Positions 45,853-60,130 of a DNA stretch of 64,000 bases are shown one piece after another (the stretch's first letter is position 1; every line of letters starts with the position of its first letter). The DNA is taken from assembly GCA_028823235.1 (NCBI GenBank), contig JAPKBW010000015.1, positions 1 to 64,000 of the forward strand. Reading direction: 5' to 3'. The notes under the pieces are model-generated. The model saw nothing but the letters and a program-made list of their open reading frames with translations. It ran no database searches and was not told where the DNA came from. The position numbers and the translations under genes were made by a program. This DNA comes from Longimicrobiales bacterium (GTDB lineage Bacteria > Gemmatimonadota > Gemmatimonadetes > Longimicrobiales > Gaopeijiaceae).

Positions 45853-48060
45853 CTAGTTCCTGCTGCCCCGTACTCGCGGGAATCGGAAGCGTCGGTTCGA
45901 TCGATCGCACAGATCGGTGGGCTCCGTACCGGGGATGTAGTACTCCATGTACTGGTCCTCCTCCGGGCACCAGCGCGAAGCCAGCTGCCCTGTCTTTCGA
46001 TCCACGAGAAGGGCGTTGAGTCCCTCCGGCATGGGCCACTCTTCCGGGATGGCGAGAAGGGGCAGTGCCTCTTCCACACCATTCTCTTCATCGGCCTCCA
46101 CACCAGCGTAAACGCGACGCATGAATGCCCCCCAGACGGGGGCAGCCAGCGCACCACCGGTTGCCACAGTGCGGCTATCCAGGTCAAAGATTGGCCTAGG
46201 GTTATCCATGCCGAACCACAGCGTGGCCAGCAGGTTGGGAGTAAACCCGGAGAACCACACGTCCGTGCCATCGTTCGTCGTCCCGGTCTTGCCCGCAGCC
46301 GGCACGGAGTAAGGAAGGCCAGCGCGAACTCGAACCGCGGTCCATGCTGTTCCGCGGCGGACGACGTCCTGAAGCATGTCGACCACGATGCGTGTCGGAA
46401 GGCTGTCGAGGACCACGGTCCGCTCAGGCTGAGGTTCCCAGACCACTCTGCCCGCATCGTCCTCTACGCGCAGAATCGGGAACGGACGGACTTTGGTCCC
46501 CATGTTGGGAAAGGCCGAATACGCTTCTGCGAGCTGGAGCGGAATCACCTCTGCGGCTCCGATCGTCGTCGAGGGATATCGCTCGATCTGTGTACGGATT
46601 CCCATGCGCTGAGCCGTCTGAGCGACCGTCTCGATTCCGACTTCCTCCCAGCCGAGCTTGATCGCGATCATGTTCGTCGAGGTGTACAGCCCTTCGCGAA
46701 TCGTCATGGGCCCCTTGAACTCGTTTCCGAAGTTGGAGGGGCGCCAGTCCTCGCCTTGCAGCTGCGGATAGACGACCGCGTTGTCTTCAAGGACGTACGA
46801 TGCCGGAATGCCGGTGTTGATCGCGGACGTATAAACGAATGGCTTGAAGGCAGACCCCGCCTGACGTTGAGCCAGACGTGCGCGGTCGAACTTCGACTGC
46901 TGGTAGTCGCGTCCGCCGATCATCGCTTTCACATGTCCCGTCTCGGGATCGAGAGCAATGAATGCACCTTGCAGGTACGGGGTCGAGCCAGGGAACTCGG
47001 CAACGGTGTCGAAGTCGGCGAAGATCGGGTGCTTGAACCGATCGTCCGTTTCGATGTCATTCCATCCGACCTCCATCGCCGCCCTCGCCGCCGACTGCAC
47101 CTCAAAGTCGAGCGTGGTATAGACGCGGAAGCCACCGCTGTAGATCTCCGACCCGAAGCGGTCGTCCAGAATTTGTCGGACCCACTCCTCGAAGTACGGG
47201 GCGATCCGTGTGACATCGCTCTCAGGCTCCGATTCGGGGAGAGGGAAGGCCTTCCACCGCGTGGCTTCGGCGCTCGTCAGGTACCCCTCAGTCGTCATGC
47301 GATCGAGAACGAGGTTCCTGCGAGCCTTGGCCCGGTCGGGATATCTGAACGGATCGTAGCGTGCCGGGACATTGAGAATGGCGGTGAGGAGCGCGGCTTC
47401 AGCCACGTTCATGTCCATGGCGTCCTTCCCGAGGTACCCGCGCGCCGCATTCTGGAAGCCGTACCCACGGCCCATGTAGATCTCGTTGAGGTACGCTTCG
47501 AGGATCTGATCCTTCGTGTAGGACGCCTCCAGTTCAAGGGCGACTTGGACCTCCTTGAGCTTTCGCACGTACCGACGGTCGAACCCGATCTCATCGAACA
47601 TGTTTCGGGCGAGCTGCTGGGTGATCGTGCTCCCACCACCCTGCTCCCGACGGAATGTCAGAACACCGAGGATGGCCCTCGTGATGCCGATGGGATCAAA
47701 GCCCCGATGCTCGTAGAACCGTTTGTCCTCAGTGGCGACGATGGCCTGCGCCACGTAGTCGGGCAGGGCCTCAATGGACATCGGCGTCCGCCGCTCGAAT
47801 CCGATTTCAGCTATCTGTTGGCCATCGTGCGTGAGGACCTTGCTCATCTGCTCATGCTGGAAGGTCCTAATCTGTGCGATCGACGGACACTCGTTTCCGG
47901 CACAGAGGTTCTGCCAGGCCCCCCACGAGCCCCCGAGTCCAAGGGCGGCGATGAAGGTCGCCCCGAGGAGAAACTCCGTCGGATACCAATAGCGGGAGAG
48001 TTTGGCGGCGATGCCTGCTTTGCCACCGTTCTTCGATCTGGGTTTTGCGCGTGCCATCAT
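45853..48060 (-). CDS. Class A penicillin-binding protein (PBP1A type)
   Basis: Bifunctional glycosyltransferase/transpeptidase of about 735 residues from ATG 48060 (a second ATG follows at 48057). A longer in-frame ATG at 48183 adds 41 residues unlike the family and precedes the candidate promoter. A basic N-terminal stretch and the membrane anchor (about 28-48) lead into the GT51 domain with E111 in EDKRFYEH and GGGSTITQQLARNMF; the transpeptidase has S403-x2-K406 (SAFKPF), S461-T-N463 and KTG at 591-593. The C-terminal ~100 residues are acidic and unassigned. Confidence 0.95.
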   Translation of the reverse strand: MMARAKPRSKNGGKAGIAAKLSRYWYPTEFLLGATFIAALGLGGSWGAWQNLCAGNECPSIAQIRTFQHEQMSKVLTHDGQQIAEIGFERRTPMSIEALPDYVAQAIVATEDKRFYEHRGFDPIGITRAILGVLTFRREQGGGSTITQQLARNMFDEIGFDRRYVRKLKEVQVALELEASYTKDQILEAYLNEIYMGRGYGFQNAARGYLGKDAMDMNVAEAALLTAILNVPARYDPFRYPDRAKARRNLVLDRMTTEGYLTSAEATRWKAFPLPESEPESDVTRIAPYFEEWVRQILDDRFGSEIYSGGFRVYTTLDFEVQSAARAAMEVGWNDIETDDRFKHPIFADFDTVAEFPGSTPYLQGAFIALDPETGHVKAMIGGRDYQQSKFDRARLAQRQAGSAFKPFVYTSAINTGIPASYVLEDNAVVYPQLQGEDWRPSNFGNEFKGPMTIREGLYTSTNMIAIKLGWEEVGIETVAQTAQRMGIRTQIERYPSTTIGAAEVIPLQLAEAYSAFPNMGTKVRPFPILRVEDDAGRVVWEPQPERTVVLDSLPTRIVVDMLQDVVRRGTAWTAVRVRAGLPYSVPAAGKTGTTNDGTDVWFSGFTPNLLATLWFGMDNPRPIFDLDSRTVATGGALAAPVWGAFMRRVYAGVEADEENGVEEALPLLAIPEEWPMPEGLNALLVDRKTGQLASRWCPEEDQYMEYYIPGTEPTDLCDRSNRRFRFPRVRGSRN

Positions 48061-48084
48061 GGTCAGGGGATCTCTCGGGCCTCG

Positions 48085-48112
48085 ATTAGGAGCATGACTC
48101 AAATGATTGCAA
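48085..48112 (-). promoter_or_regulatory. Candidate promoter of the PBP1A gene
   Basis: On the minus strand TTGCAA (48107-48112) and CCTAAT (48085-48090) with a 16-base spacer, about 25 bases before the ATG at 48060. Both match 4/6 of the sigma70 consensus. It supports that start over the longer one at 48183. Confidence 0.4.
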
Positions 48113-48124
48113 TTCGAGTGCCAT

Positions 48125-48161
48125 GCCCCGTAACAGAAGGAAGCTAGCCTTCTAGCGGGGC
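48125..48161. other. Nested inverted repeat between PBP1A and the lipoprotein peptidase gene
   Basis: GCCCCG (48125-48130) pairs with CGGGGC (48156-48161); inside, AGAAGG (48135-48140) pairs with CCTTCT (48148-48153) around AAGCTAG. All pairs are perfect. Being 65 bases upstream of the PBP1A start in a divergent gap, it may be an operator or a leader structure for either gene. Confidence 0.5.
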
Positions 48162-48283
48162 GAGCCTCAAGCATATTCGCCACGGCTCCAAGACAGACGT
48201 GTACCTCTACCTATCTGCCTTGACCAGCGTCACCGCTCCGACCAAGCTCTGCTGTCACTCCGCGCTCACGCCTCGCCTTGCTG

Positions 48284-49501
48284 ATGAAGCCGATTCGTCA
48301 ATTGTCGACTGCACTGATCTGCCTCGCCGCACTCGCTGCGGGGTGCGGCGCTCAGGCAGGATCAGAGCTCGTCGTATCGTCTGACCGGGAGCTTCGCAGG
48401 CTCGCGGCCGAAGTCCTTCCAGATATTGCCGAACGCTCGGGTATGGAGCTCAAGGTACCGGTCCGGCTCGAAGTTCGGACGCGCGACGAACTCGAGCGAT
48501 ACCTCGAGTTCAAACTTGATGAGGAATTGCCGCCCGAGGAGGCTCAGGCGAGGGTCGACGTTTATGCAATGCTGGGGCTGCTTGACCCCGATACAGATCT
48601 GCGGGCGCTCCTGCTCGGGCTGTACGGCGAACAGGTCGCCGGTTTCTACGAGCCTGATTCGACCGCCTTTTTCGTCATCGAGGGTCAGTCGGTAGCGACT
48701 CTGCGGCCGCTACTCGTGCATGAGCTCGTGCATGCGGTTCAGGATCAGTCCGTCGATCTGAGAGCACTCAGCGACTCTGACCTGGGGAACGACCGGGCGA
48801 CGGCTGCAATGGCGGCCATCGAGGGACATGCGACGCTGGTGATGTTCGAGTATCTCGCGGAGCAGATGGCGGGTACACCACTCGACCTAGCCACGGTATC
48901 AGATTTTGCCGCTCAGATACGACCGGCGCTTGAGGCCACGGCACAATTCCCGGCGCTGGCGAGTGCGCCGAGGATCATTCGGGAGTCGTTGCTTTTTCCC
49001 TATGTCGAGGGTGCGATTTTCGCTCATGGTCTGTGGAGCGAGACGGACCGAGTGGTTCCTTTCGGTGACGCGATGCCGCTGTCCACTGAACAGGTGTTCG
49101 ATCCGGCCGCGGCATCTCCGGTTGAGCTCGCTGTTGAGGTGTCCGGGGCCACGCAAGTGCTGACGGATGTCCTCGGGAGCCTCGAGTTGGGGATTCTCAT
49201 CGAGGACGTGCTTGGCGTCGCGAAGGGAGCCGGAGGTCGTGCGGGGGGCATGGCTGATGGGTGGGACGGCGATCGGTTTGTTCTGGTGGACGTCGCCGGC
49301 GAGGGGCGCGCGCTCTCGTTTGTCACGCTCTGGGACAGTGAGAAAGCTCGAGACGCGTTCTCTAATCGTGTCGAGGTGCGAGGCGAGCACTTCGGAGCAG
49401 TGCCTCGAGTGGAACGGACGAGCATCGAGGGACACCCCGCATCGATCCTGAGCGTGGGGCCTGACTTCTCGGCTCACTTCACCCTCGCGGCATCGCGATA
49501 G
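48284..49501 (+). CDS. Predicted lipoprotein zinc metallopeptidase (HExxH)
   Basis: 405 residues from ATG 48284; a TTG at 48278 is possible. A lipobox (LAALAAGC, cysteine near residue 21) anchors it in the envelope. The zinc-binding motif is HELVH (H146, E147, H150) followed by AVQDQ, and EGHATLVMFEY near residue 180 supplies conserved residues, perhaps the third ligand. The C-terminal half (about 250-405) has a beta-rich unknown domain. No characterised homologue is recognised. It lies five bases before aroB and divergent from PBP1A. Confidence 0.82.
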   Translation: MKPIRQLSTALICLAALAAGCGAQAGSELVVSSDRELRRLAAEVLPDIAERSGMELKVPVRLEVRTRDELERYLEFKLDEELPPEEAQARVDVYAMLGLLDPDTDLRALLLGLYGEQVAGFYEPDSTAFFVIEGQSVATLRPLLVHELVHAVQDQSVDLRALSDSDLGNDRATAAMAAIEGHATLVMFEYLAEQMAGTPLDLATVSDFAAQIRPALEATAQFPALASAPRIIRESLLFPYVEGAIFAHGLWSETDRVVPFGDAMPLSTEQVFDPAAASPVELAVEVSGATQVLTDVLGSLELGILIEDVLGVAKGAGGRAGGMADGWDGDRFVLVDVAGEGRALSFVTLWDSEKARDAFSNRVEVRGEHFGAVPRVERTSIEGHPASILSVGPDFSAHFTLAASR

Positions 49502-49506
49502 ATCTG

Positions 49507-50643
49507 ATGTCAAAGGCCCTGCCGAATGAACTTGGTCGAGTTATGGTCACCAGTGGGGCTGGTGACTATCCGGTGATTGTCGGCCCGGGTACGACCTCAG
49601 GACTTCCAAGCCTACTTCTCTCGCTCGCCGCCCCCCACCGTGTCGCGATGATCACGGACAGTCACGTTGGGCCTCTTTATGCTGATGCACTGGCCGCGAC
49701 ATGTCGGGCGGAGAGCTTGGACGTTGAGGTGTTCCAGTTCGAAGCGGGCGAGGCTTCAAAGACAAGGAAGACCTGGGCAACCTTGACTGATCAGATGCTC
49801 GAAGCGGGCATGGGTCGAGATACTGTGGTGGTTTCGGTCGGTGGTGGGGTGTCGACGGATCTCGCGGGCTTTGTGGCCGCAACATTTCTCCGCGGGGTGC
49901 CGGTAGTGCAGGTGCCAACGAGCTATCTGGCGATGATCGACGCCTCGGTCGGAGGCAAGACTGGAGTGGATGTGCGGGCCGGTAAGAATCTGGTCGGTGC
50001 GTTCCACCCCCCCTTGGCAGTCGTGATCGATACCACCTTGCTCGAGACCCTTCCCGTCGCGGAGCGTGCACAGGGGCTGGTTGAGGCACTGAAGCACGGG
50101 GCGATCAGAGACGAGTCCTACTTCGACGCTCTGATTGGCGACCTCGGTGCGCTGCTTGCGGCGGAGCCGATCCGGGCAGCAGAGGTCGTGCTGTCTTCCG
50201 TGCGGATCAAAGCGGAGATCGTTGGGCAGGACGAACGGGAGAGCGGAGTCCGCCAGATCTTGAATTTTGGACATACGATTGGACATGCGATGGAGGCGGC
50301 CTCCAGCTATGTCCTCGGCCACGGTGCTGCCGTTGCCATGGGCATGAAGGGGGAGGCGGCTGTCGGAGAGGCTCTGGGGGTCACCCAGGCCGGGACACGC
50401 CGTCGCCTGGACGACGCCCTCGCCCCGCTTCTCAATGTTGCAGGAGAAGATCCGCGGTGGATCGCGTCGACGCTGGACGTCGATTCTGTGATGAGTTTTC
50501 TCTGCAAAGACAAGAAGGCTCGCGCAGGGAGGCCTCGGTTTGTGCTACTGGAGCAGATTGGTACCGTCGCGGCGGGCAAGAGATGGACGCATGCAATTCC
50601 GAGTGATCTCGTGCAGGACTCGGTTCTCGGAGCAACACAGTGA
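49507..50643 (+). CDS. aroB: 3-dehydroquinate synthase
   Basis: Second step of the shikimate pathway, NAD- and metal-dependent. 378 residues with GGGVSTDLAGFVAATFLRGVPVVQVPTSYLAMIDASVGGKTG, NLVGAFHPP, the metal-binding FGHTIGHAMEA and GHGAAVAMGM. Start ATG 49507, with the aroB stop at 50641-50643. It is far from aroC-aroK and appears to share transcription with the upstream lipoprotein gene. Confidence 0.97.
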   Translation: MSKALPNELGRVMVTSGAGDYPVIVGPGTTSGLPSLLLSLAAPHRVAMITDSHVGPLYADALAATCRAESLDVEVFQFEAGEASKTRKTWATLTDQMLEAGMGRDTVVVSVGGGVSTDLAGFVAATFLRGVPVVQVPTSYLAMIDASVGGKTGVDVRAGKNLVGAFHPPLAVVIDTTLLETLPVAERAQGLVEALKHGAIRDESYFDALIGDLGALLAAEPIRAAEVVLSSVRIKAEIVGQDERESGVRQILNFGHTIGHAMEAASSYVLGHGAAVAMGMKGEAAVGEALGVTQAGTRRRLDDALAPLLNVAGEDPRWIASTLDVDSVMSFLCKDKKARAGRPRFVLLEQIGTVAAGKRWTHAIPSDLVQDSVLGATQ

Positions 50644-50670
50644 CCGGTCTTTCATTGTAGTGCGATCATC

Positions 50671-50676
50671 TATAAT
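50671..50676 (+). promoter_or_regulatory. Perfect TATAAT -10 box before the acyl-CoA synthetase gene
   Basis: TATAAT at 50671-50676, about 33 bases upstream of the ATG at 50709. No good -35 box is seen at 16-18 bases. Pattern evidence only. Confidence 0.45.
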
Positions 50677-50708
50677 AGTCTCGCAGACCTCACCCCTTCG
50701 GAGGTGCA

Positions 50709-52310
50709 ATGGCGCTCACCGAACAGGTTGACGGTTCCACCATAGCGTCGGTTCTCGCGACACGTGCGACGACCGATTCGGGTCGTCCCTATCTGCTATT
50801 CGACGAGGACCTTTACAGCTACGGGGCCGTAGACACGCACGCCGAAGCGCTCGCGGCTGGTCTGGCGGGTCTCGGAGTGGAACCGGGGGACCGTATCGCT
50901 CTCGTACTGCCGTCCTGCCCGGAGTTCGTGATCTCGATGTTCGCGGCGGCGAAGCTCGGGGCGGTCGTCGTACCCTTGAACCCTCGGCTTGCGACGCCGG
51001 ACTTGCAGTACATGCTTCGCCATTCGGAGGCCGTGTGCGCGGTCATCATCGAACAGGATCGAGGGACCGATTTCCTCCATCTGTTCGAAGAGATCATGCC
51101 GCAACTCCCGGACCTGCGTTACCTCGTGACGGTTGGCGCAGAAGAGCTCTGGTACGACGAGACCATCTATCAGTTCGAGGACCTCCTCTCTGCAGGTGCC
51201 GGTCGGGATTTTCCCGCTCCGGAGACAGAGCCAGGGGACTGCTTCGCGCTTCTGTATACTTCGGGTACGAGCGGAAAACCCAAGGGTGTGGAGTTGAGTC
51301 ACGCAAACCTTCTCGCCGTGGCTGCGGGAACGGCGGAAGCTATCGGTCTCGAAGAGACGGACCGAGTCATTGGTATCTCCGGACTCTTCCACGTGTTTGG
51401 GCTTTCGCAGGGGGTGCTGGGGAGTGCGTTGGTCGGTGCCTCGGTCGTGCTTCTCGACGACGCGGGAGCTGGCGAAGTTCTCGATGCGGCGGAGAAATAC
51501 AAGGCCACCGTTCAATACGGGATTCCGACGTTGTTCTTATCGCAACTGTCGTTGCTTGCTGAGACTGCGCGGGCTACCGATTCGCTCCGTCTGGCGGTCG
51601 TCGCGGGTGCACCCGTAAGTGATGAGTTGATGGCCGATCTGTCCGACCGTTTCGGTGCTACGGTGCTGGCCGGCTACTCGGTTACAGAGACGGCATCAAC
51701 GGTAAGTGTCTCGGTCCCCAGTGATTCACCCCAACAGCGCCGCTTTACCGTCGGACGACCGATCTCTGGCACCATGGTCCGGATCGTAGAAGCGGCCACG
51801 GAAGGCGACGTAGAGCTTCCGGTGGAGAGTGTGGGTGAGATCCGAGTGAGGGGGCCGGGCGTTATGTTGGGCTACTATCGACAGCCAAATCAGACCGCCG
51901 AATCCTTTGACGCCAATGGCTTTTTCTGTACGGGGGACCTCGGCCTGGTGGATGAGGATGGGTTCCTCCATTTGGTAGGCCGTACGCGGGACGTTATCAT
52001 TCGCTCTGGTTTCAACGTGTACCCCCGGGAAGTCGAGTCTCGAATTGAGTCTCACCCGGCGGTTCAGGAAGTAGCAGCGATCGGCGTGGCCGATGAGTTG
52101 CTTGGTGAAGCCATCTGTGCCTGCATCGTCCCTGTCGAAGGTGCGATCGTCACGGATCACGAGATCGTAGACTGGTGCCGCGAAACACTCGCGGACGACA
52201 AGGTCCCCGATATCGTCCGATTCGTCGACGAACTACCTCGGACTGACACGGGTCAGGTACGGCGGGTCGAACTCGCCCGAGCCGTTCATTCGGAAGGGCA
52301 ATCGACCTGA
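50709..52310 (+). CDS. AMP-forming acyl-CoA synthetase-like enzyme
   Basis: ANL-superfamily ligase of 533 residues. A signature P-loop LLYTSGTSGKPKGVELSH, AGYSVTETASTVSVS (A5-type), TGDLGLVDEDGFLHLVGRTRDVI (A8-type) and GFNVYPREVESRIESHPAVQE are in order, and the C-terminal lid ends near LPRTDTGQVRRVELAR, where the catalytic lysine of canonical enzymes (G-K) reads G-Q in this case. GGAGGTG lies upstream of ATG 50709. The substrate is unknown: a fatty, aromatic or other organic acid. The Q at the usual lysine position should be checked because it could impair adenylation. Confidence 0.9.
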   Translation: MALTEQVDGSTIASVLATRATTDSGRPYLLFDEDLYSYGAVDTHAEALAAGLAGLGVEPGDRIALVLPSCPEFVISMFAAAKLGAVVVPLNPRLATPDLQYMLRHSEAVCAVIIEQDRGTDFLHLFEEIMPQLPDLRYLVTVGAEELWYDETIYQFEDLLSAGAGRDFPAPETEPGDCFALLYTSGTSGKPKGVELSHANLLAVAAGTAEAIGLEETDRVIGISGLFHVFGLSQGVLGSALVGASVVLLDDAGAGEVLDAAEKYKATVQYGIPTLFLSQLSLLAETARATDSLRLAVVAGAPVSDELMADLSDRFGATVLAGYSVTETASTVSVSVPSDSPQQRRFTVGRPISGTMVRIVEAATEGDVELPVESVGEIRVRGPGVMLGYYRQPNQTAESFDANGFFCTGDLGLVDEDGFLHLVGRTRDVIIRSGFNVYPREVESRIESHPAVQEVAAIGVADELLGEAICACIVPVEGAIVTDHEIVDWCRETLADDKVPDIVRFVDELPRTDTGQVRRVELARAVHSEGQST

Positions 52311-52342
52311 CGGGAAAGCAGCGCCCGCTGTGGGCGTTCCCG
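52311..52342 (+). terminator. Bulged hairpin directly after the acyl-CoA synthetase stop
   Basis: CGGGAA (52311-52316) pairs with TTCCCG (52337-52342), and CGCCC (52322-52326) with GGGCG (52332-52336), with a five-base bulge on the left arm. It begins at the base after the stop and has no U-tract. Confidence 0.45.
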
Positions 52343-52428
52343 AAGGCTTCCCCGACCTCTGTCGCGATCCAACGACGTGGTTGAGGTGGGGAGGCCTCGC
52401 ATCAGAACAATTCAGTAAGCGAGACAAA

Positions 52429-54513
52429 ATGAACGTGCCGTACACACGCGCCCCTCACCAGGGAATCGGCGGACACTCAGGTCACGACGCGACGCACGCA
52501 GCCCTCCTCATCGACTTCGATAACGTAACGCTGGGCATGCGTAGTGAGCTTTCAAAAGAGCTTAAGAGTCTCCTCGATTCCGACGTCATCAAAGGCAAGG
52601 TGAGCGTACAGCGCGCCTATGCCGACTGGCGTCGCTATCCCCAGTACATCGTGCCCCTCTCCGAGGCGTCGGTCGATTTAATTTTCGCGCCGGCCTATGG
52701 GAGCAACAAGAAGAATGCGACCGATATCCGCATGGCGATCGACGCGCTTGAACTCGTATTCATACGTCCGGAGATCGGCACATACATCTTGCTTACAGGA
52801 GACGCGGACTTTTCGAGCCTCGTCCTGAAGCTCAAGGAATACGGGAAGTACGTAATCGGAGTGGGCATTCAGGAATCAAGTTCCGACATCCTCGTCCAGA
52901 ACTGCGACGAGTACTACTCTTACACCAGCCTCACCGGCCTCACGAAGACGACTGAGCTGAACAATCGCGAAGGGCGGGATCCCTGGCTTCTGGCCAAGGA
53001 CGCGGTCGCGAAAATGGTCCAGCGTGGTGACGTGATGCGATCCGACCGGCTCAAGCAGGTCATGCAGGAGCTCGATCCGACGTTCGACGAAGGAGCCATC
53101 GGCTTCTCAAAGTTCAGCAAATTTCTCGCGGAAGGGTCGTCGCGTGGCGTGGTGAACCTTCGAAAGCTCGAGAACGGGCAGTATGAGGTTGAGCCAGGAA
53201 AGAGTTCGAGTAGTGACCGCCCGGAAGAGGGGCGGAGCCGCGCGAGTCGCAGTCGAGGCGGCCGTAGCCGTGGTGGACGGGGGCGTGGAAGCCGTAGCGA
53301 TCGCGGGCAGGAGCGCACCGACTCAGTTGGCGCGACGGAGACGTCGTCGAGTCCGGAGGACGTCGATCCATTGCGCGCTGCGTACGACGTTCTTAGTCAG
53401 GCTCTCTCGACTCTCCGTGAAGCTGGCCGGGATCCGGTTCGGGACTCTGATGTGAAAAGGAAAATCCTCGAACGTGACCGCTCCTTCGATGAGACGGAGC
53501 TCGGCTTTGCGAAGTTCAGTAAATTTCTTGAGCAGGCGTTGCAAGATGGAGTGGTAACCCTGACAAAGACGGAAGCGGGAAATCACGACGTGTCGTTGGC
53601 GGAGGGAGTCACCGCTGACTCTCCGACGTCAGGGGTAGCTGCACCTGCTGTCGAGACACAGGCTCCGGTCACGACGACCGCAGTAGAGAGCCCGGCCGAG
53701 GTTGCCGCACCGGCAGCTCCGCCCAAGTCGGAAGAAAAAGAGACCAAACGAGGCCTGTTCGGCTTCCTGGGAGCTCGGCGGGGATCCACAAGCCGCCGTG
53801 GCGGTAAAGATGGGTCATCGCTCTTTGGGCTCGGGAACATCGTTTCTTCGTCTTCTGGCGAGCCGACGCCAAAGCGTTTTGCGGACGACCGTCCGTCCAA
53901 TCCGCGATCGGGTGGTACCGGAGTGGCCGCTACTGAGATGAACGAGCCTGACGAGTCCGGCGAGACCGACTATGACGAGCCGGATCTGCGGATTGATTCG
54001 GCAGTCGTCGACTACGGAGACAACGACGAAGAACCGGACGAGGTAGTGGCAGCGCCGCCGACCCGGTCTTCAGGGCCTCGGAAATCAGGCTCTGCTACCT
54101 CCAGTCAGTCGCCAGCCGTGTCCGCTGCGCCCACGTCGGAGTCGCCAGCGGTGTCGTCCACTCAGGAAGCGCCCTCCGGTTCTGCTCCGTCTGAGAGCGT
54201 AGAGGGGCTGGGCTTGCCGTCCGACCCCGGAGCGATAGTTCGCTACCTCACGCATCGGTACAAGGGCGTTGGCGAGAAGACTGCCGAGACGCTGGTGGAG
54301 ACTCTGGGCGCTGACATTTTCCGAACCATGCAGGAAGATCCGGACCGCATCGGAACCATCGTGCCTCCGGGACGTGCGGAGCAGGTCCTCGAGGCCTGGA
54401 AGTCTGACTTCGAGCGCAGGTCTGGAGCCAAGACCAGTGGGTCGAGTGGGTCTGAGTCCGGCACTGGTGGACGTTCCGGCGGTGGGCGGGGACGCGGAAG
54501 AGGTCGCAGCTGA
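52429..54513 (+). CDS. NYN nuclease with two LOTUS domains, RG-rich linkers and a C-terminal HhH
   Basis: 694 residues from ATG 52429; an upstream in-frame ATG at 52330 gives an N terminus without family character. Residues about 22-165 form an NYN (PIN-like) domain with acidic residues D29, D31 (LLIDFDNV), D99 and D125/D127 (LLTGDADFSS). LOTUS/OST-HTH domain 1 covers about 184-256 and domain 2 about 311-392; each carries the GFSKFSKFL/GFAKFSKFL signature. An RG-rich stretch (264-294) separates them. A long low-complexity acidic/Ser/Pro region follows, then a helix-hairpin-helix segment (593-663, GVGEKTAETLVETLG) and an RGRGRGRS tail. NYN plus LOTUS resembles eukaryotic MARF1-like RNA decay proteins. 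RNA binding and cleavage are inferred. Confidence 0.85.
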   Translation: MNVPYTRAPHQGIGGHSGHDATHAALLIDFDNVTLGMRSELSKELKSLLDSDVIKGKVSVQRAYADWRRYPQYIVPLSEASVDLIFAPAYGSNKKNATDIRMAIDALELVFIRPEIGTYILLTGDADFSSLVLKLKEYGKYVIGVGIQESSSDILVQNCDEYYSYTSLTGLTKTTELNNREGRDPWLLAKDAVAKMVQRGDVMRSDRLKQVMQELDPTFDEGAIGFSKFSKFLAEGSSRGVVNLRKLENGQYEVEPGKSSSSDRPEEGRSRASRSRGGRSRGGRGRGSRSDRGQERTDSVGATETSSSPEDVDPLRAAYDVLSQALSTLREAGRDPVRDSDVKRKILERDRSFDETELGFAKFSKFLEQALQDGVVTLTKTEAGNHDVSLAEGVTADSPTSGVAAPAVETQAPVTTTAVESPAEVAAPAAPPKSEEKETKRGLFGFLGARRGSTSRRGGKDGSSLFGLGNIVSSSSGEPTPKRFADDRPSNPRSGGTGVAATEMNEPDESGETDYDEPDLRIDSAVVDYGDNDEEPDEVVAAPPTRSSGPRKSGSATSSQSPAVSAAPTSESPAVSSTQEAPSGSAPSESVEGLGLPSDPGAIVRYLTHRYKGVGEKTAETLVETLGADIFRTMQEDPDRIGTIVPPGRAEQVLEAWKSDFERRSGAKTSGSSGSESGTGGRSGGGRGRGRGRS

Positions 54514-54644
54514 CCCGACCGTAGTACCCCCCTGTCGCCGCACCAATCGACCTTCCTGACGGCCAGGGATTTTCTCAAGCACGTTTTACTGTCAGCCCGT
54601 GGCGATGGTCGCACGCGCGCTTCTTGGCTCATGTCTTGTTTGGC

Positions 54645-54848
54645 TTATAGAGGGCCGGTTGCGCACTTGGGGTCATCGTCGAGGTTGATGGCTTCGGTCA
54701 GACCGTTCTGCATCAGGGCCTTCTTCCAGTCGAGGGCATCGATATGATGACTCGACGGCGGCAGGGCGGCCTCGATAGCTGCCGATCCGGGTAGACTGGT
54801 CCAGGCGTTGGAGATTTCCGACGATTTGTATGTACATGATCGATCCAC
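54645..54848 (-). CDS. Small 67-residue gene candidate with consensus ribosome site
   Basis: A GTG at 54848 is preceded on the minus strand by AGGAGG with six-base spacing, a near-ideal ribosome site in a gap where no other gene fits. Codon third positions over the latter half are strongly G/C-rich as in the neighbouring genes, unlike the alternative frames. The protein begins MDRSCTYKSSEISNAW and ends NLDDDPKCATGPL; it has no signal or membrane helix. I recognise no family. An alternative in another frame begins MYIQIV at 54837 but becomes Arg-rich. Around it, 54514-54644 and 54849-54968 hold nothing I can support. Confidence 0.5.
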   Translation of the reverse strand: MDRSCTYKSSEISNAWTSLPGSAAIEAALPPSSHHIDALDWKKALMQNGLTEAINLDDDPKCATGPL

Positions 54849-54968
54849 CCCACCCCTCCTGTTGGTCCCCGGGTGGGCGGTCGAAGACGACCGTGTGGGC
54901 GTGTCTGCAAAGATAGAAATCAGTGTAGCGGCGGATCGGCTCCATCGGTTCTATGTTCGAGGCACCGA

Positions 54969-54988
54969 CGGGGTGTCGAGACACCCCG
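54969..54988. promoter_or_regulatory. Perfect 9-bp inverted repeat upstream of the NhaC-like antiporter
   Basis: CGGGGTGTC (54969-54977) and GACACCCCG (54980-54988) are perfect inverted copies with two bases between them, 26 bases before the ATG at 55015. In RNA it would fold as a 7-bp stem with loop TCGAGA. It may be an operator for a dimeric regulator or an attenuating leader hairpin. Confidence 0.5.
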
Positions 54989-55014
54989 CGTGAACCGCTC
55001 TGGAGTGAAGATGC

Positions 55015-56427
55015 ATGAGTGACCCGACCTGGATTTCGGTCCTGCCCCCGATTCTCGCGATCGGTCTCGCGATCTGGACTCGGCAGGTCTATCTCTCGCT
55101 CGCGGGGGGACTCTGGTTTGCGTGGACGATTCTTGAGGGATGGAATCCGCTGACCGGAGTTTCTTCGGCGCTTGAAGGTGCCGTCGCAGTGTTTGCGGAC
55201 CCGGGTGATACTCGCGTGATCATGTTCACGCTCGTTATCGGCGCCCTGATCGCGACCGTTCAGGCCTCGGGGGGCGTGCAGGGATTCGTCCACCAGCTCG
55301 AAGAGCGGAAATGGGTTGACTCTTCGAAACGGTCCCAGCTGCTTGCATGGATCGTGGGCGTCGGAATCTTCATCGAGTCGAATATTACTGTGCTGGTAGC
55401 AGGTACTGTCGCTCGCCCGCTTTGTGACCGATACAAGTGCTCGCGGGAAAAATTGGCGTACATCATCGACTCTACTTCGGCACCGATCTGCGTTCTGATT
55501 CCGCTCAACGCATGGGGGGCTTACAACCTCCAAATCCTCGAGGGACTTGGCGTCGAGAATGCGCTTGGCGTCTTCATCCAGTCTATTTTCTTCAATTTCT
55601 ACGCATTCGCTGCCGTACTGCTCGCCCTCCTGGTGGTTCTGTTCGGCATCGACATCGGGCCCATGAAGAAGGCTGAAGAGCGAACCCGTAACGGGCAGGT
55701 TCTCTGGCCGGGTGCTATGCCCATGATCGATGAGGAAGTGCTTTCCACAGCACCGGACCCGAGTATCGAGCCTCGGGCGAAGAACATGATTCTGCCCATT
55801 CTGGCCATGGTCCTGTTCATGCCGGTCGCCCTCCTCATCACGGGTTCGGGCGACATCCGAGAAGGCTCCGGATCGACGAGTGTGCTCTGGTCTGTTGGTG
55901 TTGGTCTCGTCCTGTCCTGGATCATGCTCAAGGCGCAGGGAATTTTCACTGTGGAAGAGCTGGTCAAGCTCGCGCTCAAGGGTGCCGGTGCCCTCGTGCC
56001 GTTGGCTCTCATTCTGTTGCTTGCGCTGGCCCTGGGTGATGTCATCCAGATGCTTGGCACCGGCGTCTATGTCGCGCAGGTCACGGCGGGGACCATGCCC
56101 AACTTCGTTTACCTGCCGCTGATCTTCCTGGTTTCTGGCGGGATCGCTTTTTCGACCGGGACGAGCTGGGGCACGTTCGCCATCATGCTGCCGATCGCGG
56201 TGCCGGCGGCCATGACTCTCGGGCTGCCTCTAGCGCCGTTCGTGGCGGCTTCGCTCGCGGGTGGCGTGTTCGGAGACCACTGCTCTCCGATCTCAGACAC
56301 GACGATCATCTCCTCGATGGCAGCAGCGACGGATCACATCAGCCATGTCCGCACGCAAATCCCCTACGCACTCATCTGCGGAGGGATTGCCACCGTCGCG
56401 TTCGCGATCCTCGGAGCGACCCTCTAG
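55015..56427 (+). CDS. NhaC-type Na+/H+ antiporter or organic-ion/proton exchanger
   Basis: A 470-residue membrane protein with about eleven hydrophobic segments. IESNITVLVAGTVARPLCDRYK, STSAPICVLIPLNAWGAY, FSTGTSWGTFAIMLPIAVP and GGVFGDHCSPISDTTIISSMAAATDHISHV are the NhaC family's ion-site blocks with conserved aspartates and polar residues. The substrate may be sodium/proton or an organic anion; many relatives are unassigned. Start ATG 55015 has GGAGTGAAG upstream. Free-standing, with its own dyad. Confidence 0.9.
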   Translation: MSDPTWISVLPPILAIGLAIWTRQVYLSLAGGLWFAWTILEGWNPLTGVSSALEGAVAVFADPGDTRVIMFTLVIGALIATVQASGGVQGFVHQLEERKWVDSSKRSQLLAWIVGVGIFIESNITVLVAGTVARPLCDRYKCSREKLAYIIDSTSAPICVLIPLNAWGAYNLQILEGLGVENALGVFIQSIFFNFYAFAAVLLALLVVLFGIDIGPMKKAEERTRNGQVLWPGAMPMIDEEVLSTAPDPSIEPRAKNMILPILAMVLFMPVALLITGSGDIREGSGSTSVLWSVGVGLVLSWIMLKAQGIFTVEELVKLALKGAGALVPLALILLLALALGDVIQMLGTGVYVAQVTAGTMPNFVYLPLIFLVSGGIAFSTGTSWGTFAIMLPIAVPAAMTLGLPLAPFVAASLAGGVFGDHCSPISDTTIISSMAAATDHISHVRTQIPYALICGGIATVAFAILGATL

Positions 56428-56435
56428 ACAAGCGC

Positions 56436-56464
56436 TCGAAAACAGCGTTTCGATTCACTATATT
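56436..56464 (+). promoter_or_regulatory. Candidate promoter of etfBA
   Basis: TCGAAA (56436-56441) and TATATT (56459-56464) separated by 17 bases, about 55 bases before etfB. Matches are 4/6 and 5/6. Confidence 0.45.
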
Positions 56465-56519
56465 GGGGGCGGTGCGGCCCTGGCCGCCGTGAGAAAACAC
56501 CGTACGTGGAGCGAGTCAG

Positions 56520-57269
56520 TTGAACGTCATCGTGTGTGTAAAGCGCGTCCCAGACACTGAGGCGCGCATCCGTGTCGACAGTTCCGGGATTGCCATCGAC
56601 AAGGCGGGTATCAAGTATGACTTGAGCCCGTACGATGCCTTCGCGGTAGAGGCCGCTCTTCGTGTCAAAGAGGCCGCCGGCGAAGGCGAGGTCACCTTGC
56701 TCACGCTCGGTGATTCGTCGACGCAAGAGACGCTTAGAAAAGGACTCGCAATGGGAGCAGACCGGGCGATCCTCCTTACTGGCGAGGTCAGCCTGGACGG
56801 TCTCGCGACGGCAAAGGCTTTGGCAGCAGAGCTGGACGGATCCGATGCCCCACTCTTCCTGTTCGGGATTAAGGCGGCCGACTACGATCAATCACAGGTT
56901 GGACCTATGGTCGCTACACTCGCGGGTCGTCCGTGCGTCACGGGTGTGTCCGGCTTCGATGTCGAGGCTGGGAGGGTGGTTTGCCGGAGAGAGGTCGAGG
57001 GCGGTAGTGAAACCGTCCACGTCGACCTCCCCGCGGTGCTTTGCATGACTAAGGGCCCGAACCAACCACGCCTTGCGGCGCTCAAGGGAATCATGGCAGC
57101 CAAGAAGAAGCCACTGGACGAAAAACCAGCTGTCTCCGGAGTGGCCCGAGTGCGTCTGGTCGCGCTGACGGAGCCGCCGGCGCGCGAGCCGGGCAGGATC
57201 GTCGGAGAGGGTGCCGACGCAGTTGCTGAACTCGTTCGCCTGCTTCGTGAAGAAGCAAACGCGATCTGA
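56520..57269 (+). CDS. etfB: Electron transfer flavoprotein subunit beta
   Basis: With EtfA it shuttles electrons from acyl-CoA and other dehydrogenases to the quinone pool. The 249-residue protein starts at TTG with GGAG eight bases upstream; MNVIVCVKRVPDTEARIRVD, LSPYDAFAVEAALRVKE and the AMP-binding region around VLCMTKGPNQPRLAALKGIMAAKKKPL (cut here as separate parts) match EtfB. A 6-bp inverted repeat GCGATC/GATCGC (57261-57286) straddles its stop. etfA follows 57 bases downstream. Confidence 0.95.
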   Translation: MNVIVCVKRVPDTEARIRVDSSGIAIDKAGIKYDLSPYDAFAVEAALRVKEAAGEGEVTLLTLGDSSTQETLRKGLAMGADRAILLTGEVSLDGLATAKALAAELDGSDAPLFLFGIKAADYDQSQVGPMVATLAGRPCVTGVSGFDVEAGRVVCRREVEGGSETVHVDLPAVLCMTKGPNQPRLAALKGIMAAKKKPLDEKPAVSGVARVRLVALTEPPAREPGRIVGEGADAVAELVRLLREEANAI

Positions 57270-57326
57270 ACCCGCTGTTCGATCGCTAGCCCCATCCCAT
57301 CTGGAATTCTTACGGAGTAGTCAGAC

Positions 57327-58316
57327 ATGGCGAATGTACTCGCCTTTGCAGAGCAGCGAGACGGTCAAGTTGGTTCAGCAGCTCGCGAGGCCGTCGGCGT
57401 CGCGGCCCAGCTCGCCGAATCACTAGGCGGCAAAGCTCACGCTTTGGTACTTGGGGGCTCGGGGTTATCCGCCTCGGCTGCAGCGCTTGGTGAGGTAGGT
57501 GCCGCTGCGGTCGCCGTGGGCGAACATGACGACCTGAGCGATTACAACCCCGAGGGTTATGTCAATCTGGTCGTCGATCACGTAAGGGCGGGCGACTACG
57601 GTGCGGTCATTTTTGGGGCGACCACTCTGGGCAAGGATCTGGCACCTCGGGTCGCGGCTCGACTCGACGTGCCAATGGCGTCCGACGTGACCGGAGTTGA
57701 GGCGTCAGGCGGCACGCTTTCTGTGACGCGCCCAGTCTTCTCTGGGAAGGCGTTCGCGACACTGGAAATCGATGCCACGCCTGCGGTCGTCACGGTGCGT
57801 CCGAATGTGTTTCAAGCGGCGGTGCGACCCGCGGCTGGTGAAGTGTCGACTTTCACGCCCGAGGTCGACGCGTCGACGTGGAGAGTCCGGGTTGTAGAAC
57901 GTGACAGCGCCAGCGGCGGGCAGGTCGACGTTTTGGAAGCCTCGGTGATTGTGTCCGGTGGCCGAGGCATGAAAGACCCCGAGAACTGGGGTCTACTCGA
58001 AGAACTTCGCGATGCGATAGGGTCAGATGTAGCGCTCGGTGCCTCTCGTGCTGTGGTCGACGCCGGATGGCGTCCGCACCGCGAACAGGTCGGACAGACC
58101 GGGAAGACGGTCGCGCCGAAACTCTATTTCGCAGTGGGTATTTCCGGAGCGATTCAGCATCTTGCGGGCATGAGGACGGCCAAGACAATCGTCGCGATCA
58201 ATCGTGATGCTGATGCGCCGATCTTCAGCGTTGCAGACTATGGAATCGTTGGAGACCTCTTTGACATCGTTCCCAAGTTGGCCGAGGAAATCGCCGCGCT
58301 GCGGGCTTCAGACTAA
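57327..58316 (+). CDS. etfA: Electron transfer flavoprotein subunit alpha
   Basis: FAD-binding partner of EtfB. 329 residues; the N-terminal domain has the AVGVAAQLAESLGGKAHALV helix and the C-terminal FAD domain VIVSGGRGMKDPENWGLLEE, GASRAVVDAGWRPHREQVGQTGK, LYFAVGISGAIQHLAGM and IVAINRDADAPIFSVADYGIVGD, all diagnostic. ACGGAGTAG lies upstream of ATG 57327. A three-tier hairpin follows its stop, at the convergence with the M23 gene. Confidence 0.97.
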   Translation: MANVLAFAEQRDGQVGSAAREAVGVAAQLAESLGGKAHALVLGGSGLSASAAALGEVGAAAVAVGEHDDLSDYNPEGYVNLVVDHVRAGDYGAVIFGATTLGKDLAPRVAARLDVPMASDVTGVEASGGTLSVTRPVFSGKAFATLEIDATPAVVTVRPNVFQAAVRPAAGEVSTFTPEVDASTWRVRVVERDSASGGQVDVLEASVIVSGGRGMKDPENWGLLEELRDAIGSDVALGASRAVVDAGWRPHREQVGQTGKTVAPKLYFAVGISGAIQHLAGMRTAKTIVAINRDADAPIFSVADYGIVGDLFDIVPKLAEEIAALRASD

Positions 58317-58363
58317 GAGATCTTCGCCGCGATGACTTGATGTCACCACGGCTACCAGATCTC
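58317..58363. terminator. Three-tier nested hairpin between convergent etfA and M23 lipoprotein genes
   Basis: GAGATCT (58317-58323) pairs with AGATCTC (58357-58363), GCCG (58326-58329) with CGGC (58349-58352), and TGAC (58333-58336) with GTCA (58342-58345), all perfectly nested. The whole 45-base gap is one potential structure, readable from both strands, so it may serve as a bidirectional terminator. No T run on either side. Confidence 0.5.
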
Positions 58364-58817
58364 ACCCGTCCTGCGCCCCGGGTTTTCCACCGAGGACGGG
58401 TATCGGGTCGACAGGGCGCCCCCAGCGCCATACCTCGAAGTGGAGATGGGGGGCTGTAACGTCACCCGTGGCGCCGCTGAGTCCGATAGGATCACCCGCG
58501 CTCAGGCGCTGCCCGTCGGCGACTTGAATGACGGAGAGGTGCGCATACACCGATTCAATGCCTCCGGCATGGTCGATCCACACGACGTTGCCGAAGCCTC
58601 GCATGGCACCCGCGAAACGCACCGTGCCGTCGGCCATCGCCTCGACGAGTGTGCCCGTCGCGACGTTCAGGTCCACTCCTCGATGAATGTCTGGCCGGGC
58701 ACCCATGAATCGTAGGCCGAATCCTGAGGTGAGAGACGCGTCGACCGGCCAGCGCGGGAGGTGACACCCTGTCGCCCCGACGACCAACGCGCACGCGAGC
58801 AGGGTGCGCGTCCGCAT
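58362..58817 (-). CDS. M23/LytM-family peptidase lipoprotein
   Basis: 151 residues with a lipobox (LVVGATGC, cysteine at about 18). The LytM domain follows directly: SGFGLRFM, zinc-binding H-x3-D in DIHRGVDL, YAHLS and the HxH in APHLHFEVW. All metal ligands are present, so an active endopeptidase is possible, although the protein is minimal. It starts three bases after moeA ends and is its downstream partner; the link between the two is probably only transcriptional. Confidence 0.9.
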   Translation of the reverse strand: MRTRTLLACALVVGATGCHLPRWPVDASLTSGFGLRFMGARPDIHRGVDLNVATGTLVEAMADGTVRFAGAMRGFGNVVWIDHAGGIESVYAHLSVIQVADGQRLSAGDPIGLSGATGDVTAPHLHFEVWRWGRPVDPIPVLGGKPGAQDG

Positions 58818-58819
58818 CC

Positions 58820-60130
58820 CTAGCCGATCATGAACGGAACTGCTGCCGGCCCTGAATCGAGCAGCATCACCTCGACGATCTCGCCCGGCTCGATGCTTCC
58901 ACGATCTGGTGGTACGATCGCCAGACCGTCGGCCGCAGCGAGACCTCGGACCAACCCGGAGACCTGCGGGCCGGTCAGCGAGGCCGTCAGCTCTCCACCC
59001 TCGACCCCGAGGGATACTCGCTGGAAGTAGGTCAGGGATGCGGGAGTATCGAGGCGTTCGGTCGTGCGGCAGGGCACTCGCCTGCGTTCCACTCTAGCAT
59101 GGCCCGCCAGACGCAGCAGGTAGGGTCGAACGAAGACCTCGAACGTCACGAAGGCTGACGAAGGATTACCCGGAAGGCTGAACACCGCCTGCCGGTGATC
59201 GCGGTGGTCGAGCCAGCCGAAGCTGATCGGGCTGCCTGGGCGCATCTTCACCCGCCAGAAGTCCTGGATGAAGCCGCGGGTGTCGAGCACCCGTTTCACG
59301 AGATCAGCTTCGCCCATGGAAGCGCCACCGATCGTGATCAGAACGTCAGAGTCACGGCCCCGTTCGATCGCATTCTCAATGGAAGCCGGTTCGTCCACGG
59401 CGATGCCGAGGTCTAAGGGGATCGCCCCGAGCGCCTCAACTAGCGCCTGGACCATTGGGCCGTTCGACTCGGGAACGCCCTGGCCTTTGCGCACGTCGTC
59501 GTATTGATCTGCACGCCGCAACTCGTCTCCCGTGGAAAGTACGGCTACGGTGGGTACACCGTGGAGTTGAGCGCGTACCCGGCCGGCGGCCGCCAGAACC
59601 CCCATCGTCCCGGGTGTGATCGTGTGCCCCGGTGAGAAGAGGAGGTCGCCCGAACGCATATCCTGTCCGGCGCCGCGTACGTGACGTCCGCTGTCTCTCG
59701 AGCTGTTGATCGATACTACGCCCGGGGCTGCCTCCGCATCGGTGTCTTCTACTCGGACCACCGTGTCTGCGCCGTCCGGCACGGGTGCACCCGTCATGAT
59801 CCGCATGGCGCTAGCGGGTTGTAAGGTGCGAGGCGCTCCGTCGCCTGCCCGAATGACATCGGTAACAGGCAACTGAGTAGGGTTTTCGGGCGTCGCCTCG
59901 GCTATGTCTGCGGAGCGGACGGCGTAGCCGTCCATGGCGCTGTTGTCCCATGGCGGCAGCGTCGCTTCGGCCACGATGTCCTCAGCGAGGGCACGCCCCA
60001 ACGCTTGCCGAAGTTCGACTGGCTCTGCCGGATGAGGACGTGCGGCAGCCATGATCCGACGCCGAGCGGCGTCAACGTCGAGCCAGTCCGCGACACGGGC
60101 TTCGAAGTCTGAGCCGCCGGGAGAGCTCAC
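58820..60130 (-). CDS. moeA: Molybdopterin molybdenumtransferase
   Basis: Inserts molybdate into adenylated molybdopterin. I start at GTG 60130 (436 residues), 13 bases after the preceding gene; an in-frame ATG at 60208 would overlap that gene by 65 bases. Domain III (about 180-330) has VGVLAAAGRVRAQLHGVPTVAVLSTGDEL; DNSAMDGYAVRSAD, RIMTGAPVPDGADTVVRVEDT and FSLPGNPSSAF are diagnostic. Works with MogA (12141-12668). Confidence 0.95.
   Translation of the reverse strand: MSSPGGSDFEARVADWLDVDAARRRIMAAARPHPAEPVELRQALGRALAEDIVAEATLPPWDNSAMDGYAVRSADIAEATPENPTQLPVTDVIRAGDGAPRTLQPASAMRIMTGAPVPDGADTVVRVEDTDAEAAPGVVSINSSRDSGRHVRGAGQDMRSGDLLFSPGHTITPGTMGVLAAAGRVRAQLHGVPTVAVLSTGDELRRADQYDDVRKGQGVPESNGPMVQALVEALGAIPLDLGIAVDEPASIENAIERGRDSDVLITIGGASMGEADLVKRVLDTRGFIQDFWRVKMRPGSPISFGWLDHRDHRQAVFSLPGNPSSAFVTFEVFVRPYLLRLAGHARVERRRVPCRTTERLDTPASLTYFQRVSLGVEGGELTASLTGPQVSGLVRGLAAADGLAIVPPDRGSIEPGEIVEVMLLDSGPAAVPFMIG

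Follow-up and report, generated by a model that had tools for sequence, protein, structure and literature searches.

The role of LOTUS domains in bacteria has been stated as an open question (PMC6168497), and one gene at 52429..54513 (+) of the window, the 64,000-nucleotide stretch of Longimicrobiales DNA analysed here, raises it in a specific form: what does a protein do in which an NYN nuclease domain is followed by two LOTUS domains, Arg/Gly-rich segments and a helix-hairpin-helix (HhH) domain? The core of this architecture is known. NYN with one or two LOTUS domains was described as a bacterial arrangement by Anantharaman, Zhang and Aravind in 2010, who predicted a nuclease with a possible standalone role in RNA degradation and reported no neighborhood linkage to known RNA systems (PMC2848206). 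The fusions described in that study, to S1/cold-shock, Zn-knuckle and DUF2384 domains, do not include HhH (PMC2848206), and the experimental LOTUS and MARF1 work that we found in the literature concerns animals. What is new here is the distribution of the protein, the conservation of its NYN domain, the exchange of its C-terminal module, a linear motif and a conserved gene block.

Domain organization

The reading frame encodes 694 residues without an internal stop, and alignment shows its start methionine to be common to its homologues. The NYN (PIN-like) nuclease domain (52498..52920 (+), residues 24-164) was recognized by Pfam with an E value of 2.6e-23; its score against the TIGR00288 NYN family, 39.1 of 178.45 bits, lies under the curated cut-off. 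Ahead of this domain, positions 52429-52470 encode a short conserved N-terminal motif, MxxPYxRAPHxG, which reads HRGPQA in many proteins of lineage f5. OST-HTH was detected by Pfam in two stretches (E 1.2e-9, best at residues 325-386). LOTUS/OST-HTH domain 1 (52978..53199 (+), residues 184-257; model pLDDT 87-97) was also placed, at about residues 202-252, by a genome scan, which found one LOTUS protein in all in the window's genome. Domain 2 (53365..53601 (+), residues 313-391; pLDDT 90-98) has the TDRD7 LOTUS structure 3rco among the closest folds of its model. The Arg/Gly/Ser-rich linker between them (53200..53364 (+), residues 258-312) contains 12 Arg, 9 Gly and 14 Ser in 55 residues, and 74% of homologues carry at least two RG dipeptides there. 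A disordered region (53602..54198 (+), residues 392-590), the HhH domain (54199..54423 (+), residues 591-665) and a Gly/Arg-rich tail with 12 Gly and 5 Arg in 29 residues (54424..54510 (+), residues 666-694) complete the protein. An AlphaFold2 model based on 56 homologues placed the LOTUS domains at residues ~181-260 and ~311-392 and the HhH domain at ~590-673, with pLDDT about 87-98, and assigned low confidence to the RG linker and to most of residues 398-585. A preliminary description of this DNA was thus right about the frame, strand and coordinates, and the two LOTUS domains, RG linker and RG tail that it proposed are all present.

It had also called the long region after the second LOTUS domain disordered. 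Low pLDDT and a median identity of ~20% agree with this, but a conserved linear motif, RLGPRRGSTRRR followed by PPPLFEGQ, lies inside it; the window's own copy (53767..53844 (+), residues 447-472) is degenerate. The pattern LGxRxGS was found in 35 of 81 homologues, where same-composition shuffles gave 0.5, and [LF]xGQ in 47 of 81, where they gave 4; the homologues are not independent, so that these counts express a contrast with the surrounding unconserved sequence and not a probability. The presence of such a motif within an otherwise unconserved region is new. Several f5 proteins, relatives which lack HhH, have a comparable PPxLLxVGVV motif.

Catalytic residues and fold of the NYN domain

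A query profile made from ten NYN proteins drawn from several groups matched VPA0982 of Vibrio parahaemolyticus (2qip) at 1.4e-13 and the NYN domain of human MARF1 (6fdl) at 0.0055. In the profile alignment to 6fdl, D29 (52513..52515), D99 (52723..52725) and D125 (52801..52803; all on the + strand) correspond to MARF1 Asp358, Asp426 and Asp452, which are part of the acidic active site of that endoribonuclease (PMC6294520). The same triad has been reported in VPA0982 and in the CRISPR-associated NYN protein of B. fragilis, in which D13A abolishes cleavage (PMC11346440). None of the 81 homologues departs from these three residues or from D31, D105 and D127. D29, D125 and D127 had been listed beforehand as the residues to mutate; the first two belong to the triad, but D99 had been missed, and the position of D127 is occupied by Asn in MARF1.

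Modelled alone, the NYN domain folded with pLDDT 83.9 and pTM 0.83, and Foldseek searches with this model retrieved 2qip (5.4e-9), mouse Marf1 (5yaa, 7.1e-7) and human MARF1 (6fdl, 5.5e-6), each with a TM score of about 0.7. The acidic cluster is therefore present in a domain that folds, and the claim of a nuclease domain with intact acidic residues stands on both its invariance and the match to the MARF1 and VPA0982 crystal structures. In the first full-length model NYN was unfolded (pLDDT about 43). We regard this as an artefact of too little diversity in the alignment, since the domain folds once relatives from viral contigs are included.

These features define the protein's relationship to known systems. 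With the bacterial LK-nuclease (DUF88/NYN) and OST-HTH family it shares an N-terminal NYN domain with the acidic triad and one or two LOTUS domains, and ribonuclease activity is predicted for both; its identity as an NYN-LOTUS protein is close to certain. Unlike the family as described in 2010, it has an HhH domain, a linear motif, a conserved gene block and exceptional conservation in one class. VPA0982, the nearest solved NYN by sequence and by fold, is NYN alone in the solved chain. The B. fragilis NYN protein shares the triad and has been shown experimentally to be an Mn-dependent RNase, but it acts in a CRISPR context, and the paper describing it does not mention LOTUS (PMC11346440). With MARF1 (Limkain b1), an enzyme of the animal germline, the protein has in common the NYN fold, the Asp triad and several LOTUS domains, and the label "MARF1-like" given in the preliminary description is apt to that extent. 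MARF1, however, has RRM domains and, in humans, eight LOTUS domains, whereas Pfam found two LOTUS domains and no RRM in the bacterial protein, and the arrangement was already known (PMC2848206). With this locus, the MARF1 nuclease has a counterpart in bacteria.

Distribution and rate of change

A species-level genome collection yielded 266 relatives, and the best 80 of the 266 come almost entirely from genomes titled as Gemmatimonadota-type MAGs. An even sample of 101 genomes of the phylum, 95 from the window's class and 6 (f9) from another class, gave the domain survey that the preliminary description had called for. The NYN-LOTUS protein is present in 93 of the 101 genomes, and thus in 93 of 95 from the class, with one full N-terminal match in each. 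It was not found in classmates G051 and G112 or in any of the six f9 genomes, and OST-HTH was likewise undetected in these eight. This near-universality in one class and absence from the other class sampled is new. Anti-phage defence was considered as a role and rejected on the lack of a PADLOC match (E <= 0.01) and the near-universal, vertical-looking distribution.

To place the conservation of NYN on a scale, we compared the domain (152 residues) with ribosomal protein S7 (156 residues) in 88 comparable genomes, using the sequences of the window's genome as references. NYN identity exceeded S7 identity in all 88, with medians of 81.5% and 70% and a smallest gap of 2 points. A domain that changes more slowly than S7 points to a core role. 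Across homologous loci, median identity was 89.5% for NYN, 64.9% for LOTUS1, 51.9% for LOTUS2, 53.3% for HhH and 20.4% for the disordered region; the NYN value is far higher than those of the neighboring gene products AroB (51%), the ligase (56%) and EtfA (61%), and NhaC stands at 69%. Outside the class, similarity drops to about 36% or lower. A whole bacterial class with a near-universal NYN-LOTUS protein that is slower-changing than a ribosomal protein is a place to test what bacterial LOTUS domains do.

An exchangeable C-terminal module

A RecD2-like HhH domain near the C-terminus had been proposed, with the reservation that it might be low-complexity sequence. A confident model and its conservation exclude the latter: residues 596-661 match the HhH stretch of the RecD2 family TIGR01448 (E 3.3e-6), 46 of 56 homologues match HHH_5 with E values of 0.1 or lower, and in profile searches the HhH nearest in sequence among solved structures is that of archaeal XPF (2bhn, 1.1e-5), with Topoisomerase V and RuvA also matched. 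The first hairpin hardly varies from GVGxKTAE, and its residues G613, G615, T618 and A619 do not vary at all in 56 sequences; the second hairpin is without the G-x-G pattern. The likeness to RecD2 and XPF is confined to this segment. The match to TIGR01448 (25.5 of 500 bits) covers the HhH stretch alone, without the RecD2 helicase motor, and the protein has neither a helicase nor an XPF nuclease domain. In genome G000 (97% complete) the HhH of this protein is the sole RecD2-family match, and RecD2 itself therefore seems absent.

Among the best 80 of 266 relatives, all complete proteins carry HhH as the window's does, and the five without a full HhH end at contig edges. The even sample shows that HhH is nonetheless not a universal part. 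Within the NYN protein it is limited to lineages f1, f2, f3 and f7 (34 genomes; that of G015 in f2 is cut by its contig) and is missing from all 58 carriers in f4, f5 and f6, out of 93 carriers in total. The remaining HhH matches, in G050 and f9, are separate reading frames of about 750 residues; the one that we read, in G021, is a RecD2-type helicase containing the segment GLIRGVGPVTAERIVNAFGEKTLDVIDHEPERL. HhH is therefore specific to certain lineages and open to exchange, and the core function cannot depend on it. The f4-f6 proteins that we read contain RG-rich stretches, and most of them also have a second, diverged LOTUS-like region and an end rich in Lys, Ala and Pro, e.g. KAPAKAPAKKAAK. 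Such ends take the form of repeats in the HhH-less proteins L133, L136, L141, L142, L143, L147 and L151, and L146 (G014) is a 1055-residue open frame with very long RG and Pro/Ala/Glu-rich regions.

The C-terminal module is thus swapped within the class, a RecD2/XPF-type HhH in the window's lineages and Lys/Ala/Pro-rich tails elsewhere, which is new and serves as a natural experiment in the exchange of C-terminal parts. We take the Lys/Ala/Pro-rich tails to resemble DNA-binding, histone-H1-like proteins. What the proteins share is a C-terminus that is basic or putatively binds nucleic acids, and the occurrence of basic tails where HhH is missing makes a nucleic-acid tether, perhaps to DNA, look like the function that has been kept. 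Plasmid relatives from Caballeronia, Eleftheria, Aquabacterium and Vibrio have NYN and one LOTUS or LOTUS-like region, and HhH was not found in these four; the tail of the Eleftheria protein includes RG and Lys/Ala/Pro-rich parts, which shows that basic tails are found elsewhere in the family too. A relative on a contig from a phage collection has NYN and two LOTUS-like regions. The preliminary description had regarded the HhH fusion as unfamiliar in bacteria; HhH is indeed unmentioned in the 2010 study (PMC2848206) and was not seen in the four plasmid relatives, but only part of the class has it.

A predicted endoribonuclease and its alternatives

From the computed domains, triad, fold, conservation and distribution we infer, with a probability of roughly 0.55, a single-copy, housekeeping-type, metal-dependent endoribonuclease that binds RNA through its LOTUS and RG segments and is tethered by its C-terminus. 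The data suggest an unstudied housekeeping RNA enzyme in one class of Gemmatimonadota. NYN would cut single-stranded RNA at a metal site formed by D29, D99 and D125, and RNA cleavage by this domain is very probable. Binding and selecting the RNA would fall to the LOTUS pair and the RG segments, and the long flexible region could offer its short motif as a docking site. The C-terminal HhH would anchor the protein to a structured nucleic acid, for which DNA is the likeliest choice given the matches of the domain to the DNA-acting RecD2, XPF, Topoisomerase V and RuvA, and the tethered enzyme might then act on RNA near the nucleoid, either nascent transcripts or RNA-DNA structures. The chances are about even that HhH is a nucleic-acid tether, and a core role in RNA decay or processing seems to us equally balanced. 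Against the whole stand the differences among the flexible tails, which vary so greatly between lineages that a shared role in tethering cannot be taken as established, the metabolic neighbors, which are silent about RNA, and the ability of HhH domains to bind proteins or RNA as well.

The same endoribonuclease could instead use HhH for dimerization or protein docking, with DNA not involved. XPF-family HhH2 domains also form heterodimers, and both the closeness of archaeal XPF and the degenerate second hairpin fit this somewhat unlikely possibility. However, the nearly invariant first hairpin, with its four invariant residues, is of a type that serves phosphate-backbone contact, and replacement by basic tails in relatives fits nucleic-acid binding better. 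FEN-type 5' nucleases also combine a PIN-like fold with HhH. By analogy with them, the substrate might be DNA or an RNA-DNA hybrid, in R-loops or repair; NYN/PIN and FLAP nucleases belong to one superfamily (PMC6294520), and 11 of 56 HhH members give a weak match to the 5_3_exonuc HhH model. That substrate is quite improbable, as NYN is nearest to RNA-cutting MARF1 and not to FEN, LOTUS domains are reported to bind RNA, and most of the class lacks HhH. The protein could also be an RNA-binding scaffold or a regulator that makes little use of its nuclease site, as LOTUS domains, RG segments and a long stretch of flexible chain suit a ribonucleoprotein scaffold, but invariance of the triad in 81 of 81 homologues, in the most conserved part of the protein, makes such a role highly improbable. 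More ambitiously, the tethered endoribonuclease might be the central RNA-decay hub of the class, an RNase E analogue built from unrelated parts: a MARF1-type, essential, condensate-forming RNase. Behind the endonuclease, which is conserved to an extreme degree at the N-terminus, the disordered part would serve as a scaffold in which Arg-rich patches bind RNA and a short motif docks a partner, and the exchangeable module at the other end would hold the protein to DNA. We consider this extension unlikely.

Gene neighborhood

No partner had been seen next to the gene, but its same-strand neighbors prove to be conserved. At homologous loci with room, aroB (49507..50643 (+)) lies upstream in 72 of 74 and an AMP-forming acyl-CoA synthetase/ligase (50709..52310 (+)), in the window the immediate upstream neighbor, in 63 of 76; downstream are an NhaC-type Na+/H+ antiporter (55015..56427 (+); 54 of 67) and etfB and etfA (56520..58316 (+); 54 of 63 and 53 of 59), all assigned by Pfam. 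A further gene upstream of aroB (48278-49501 (+)) is conserved in 35 of 68 homologous loci with room; it has no Pfam match above cut-off, with a weak similarity to the putative metallopeptidase DUF6782 (E 0.012). An Rfam scan of 48000-60000 revealed no structured RNA at E <= 1. We considered a functional partnership and claim none, as aroB, the acyl-CoA ligase, the antiporter, ETF and MoeA share no theme; we read the block as old and slowly rearranging. In some loci (L063, L064, L067 and L068) the ligase ends within about ten bases of the NYN-LOTUS gene, which suggests one transcript; in the window 118 bases separate the two. The ligase adjoins the gene also in several HhH-less relatives. The order aroB, AMP-ligase, NYN-LOTUS, NhaC, etfB, etfA (49507-58316) is kept across many lineages.
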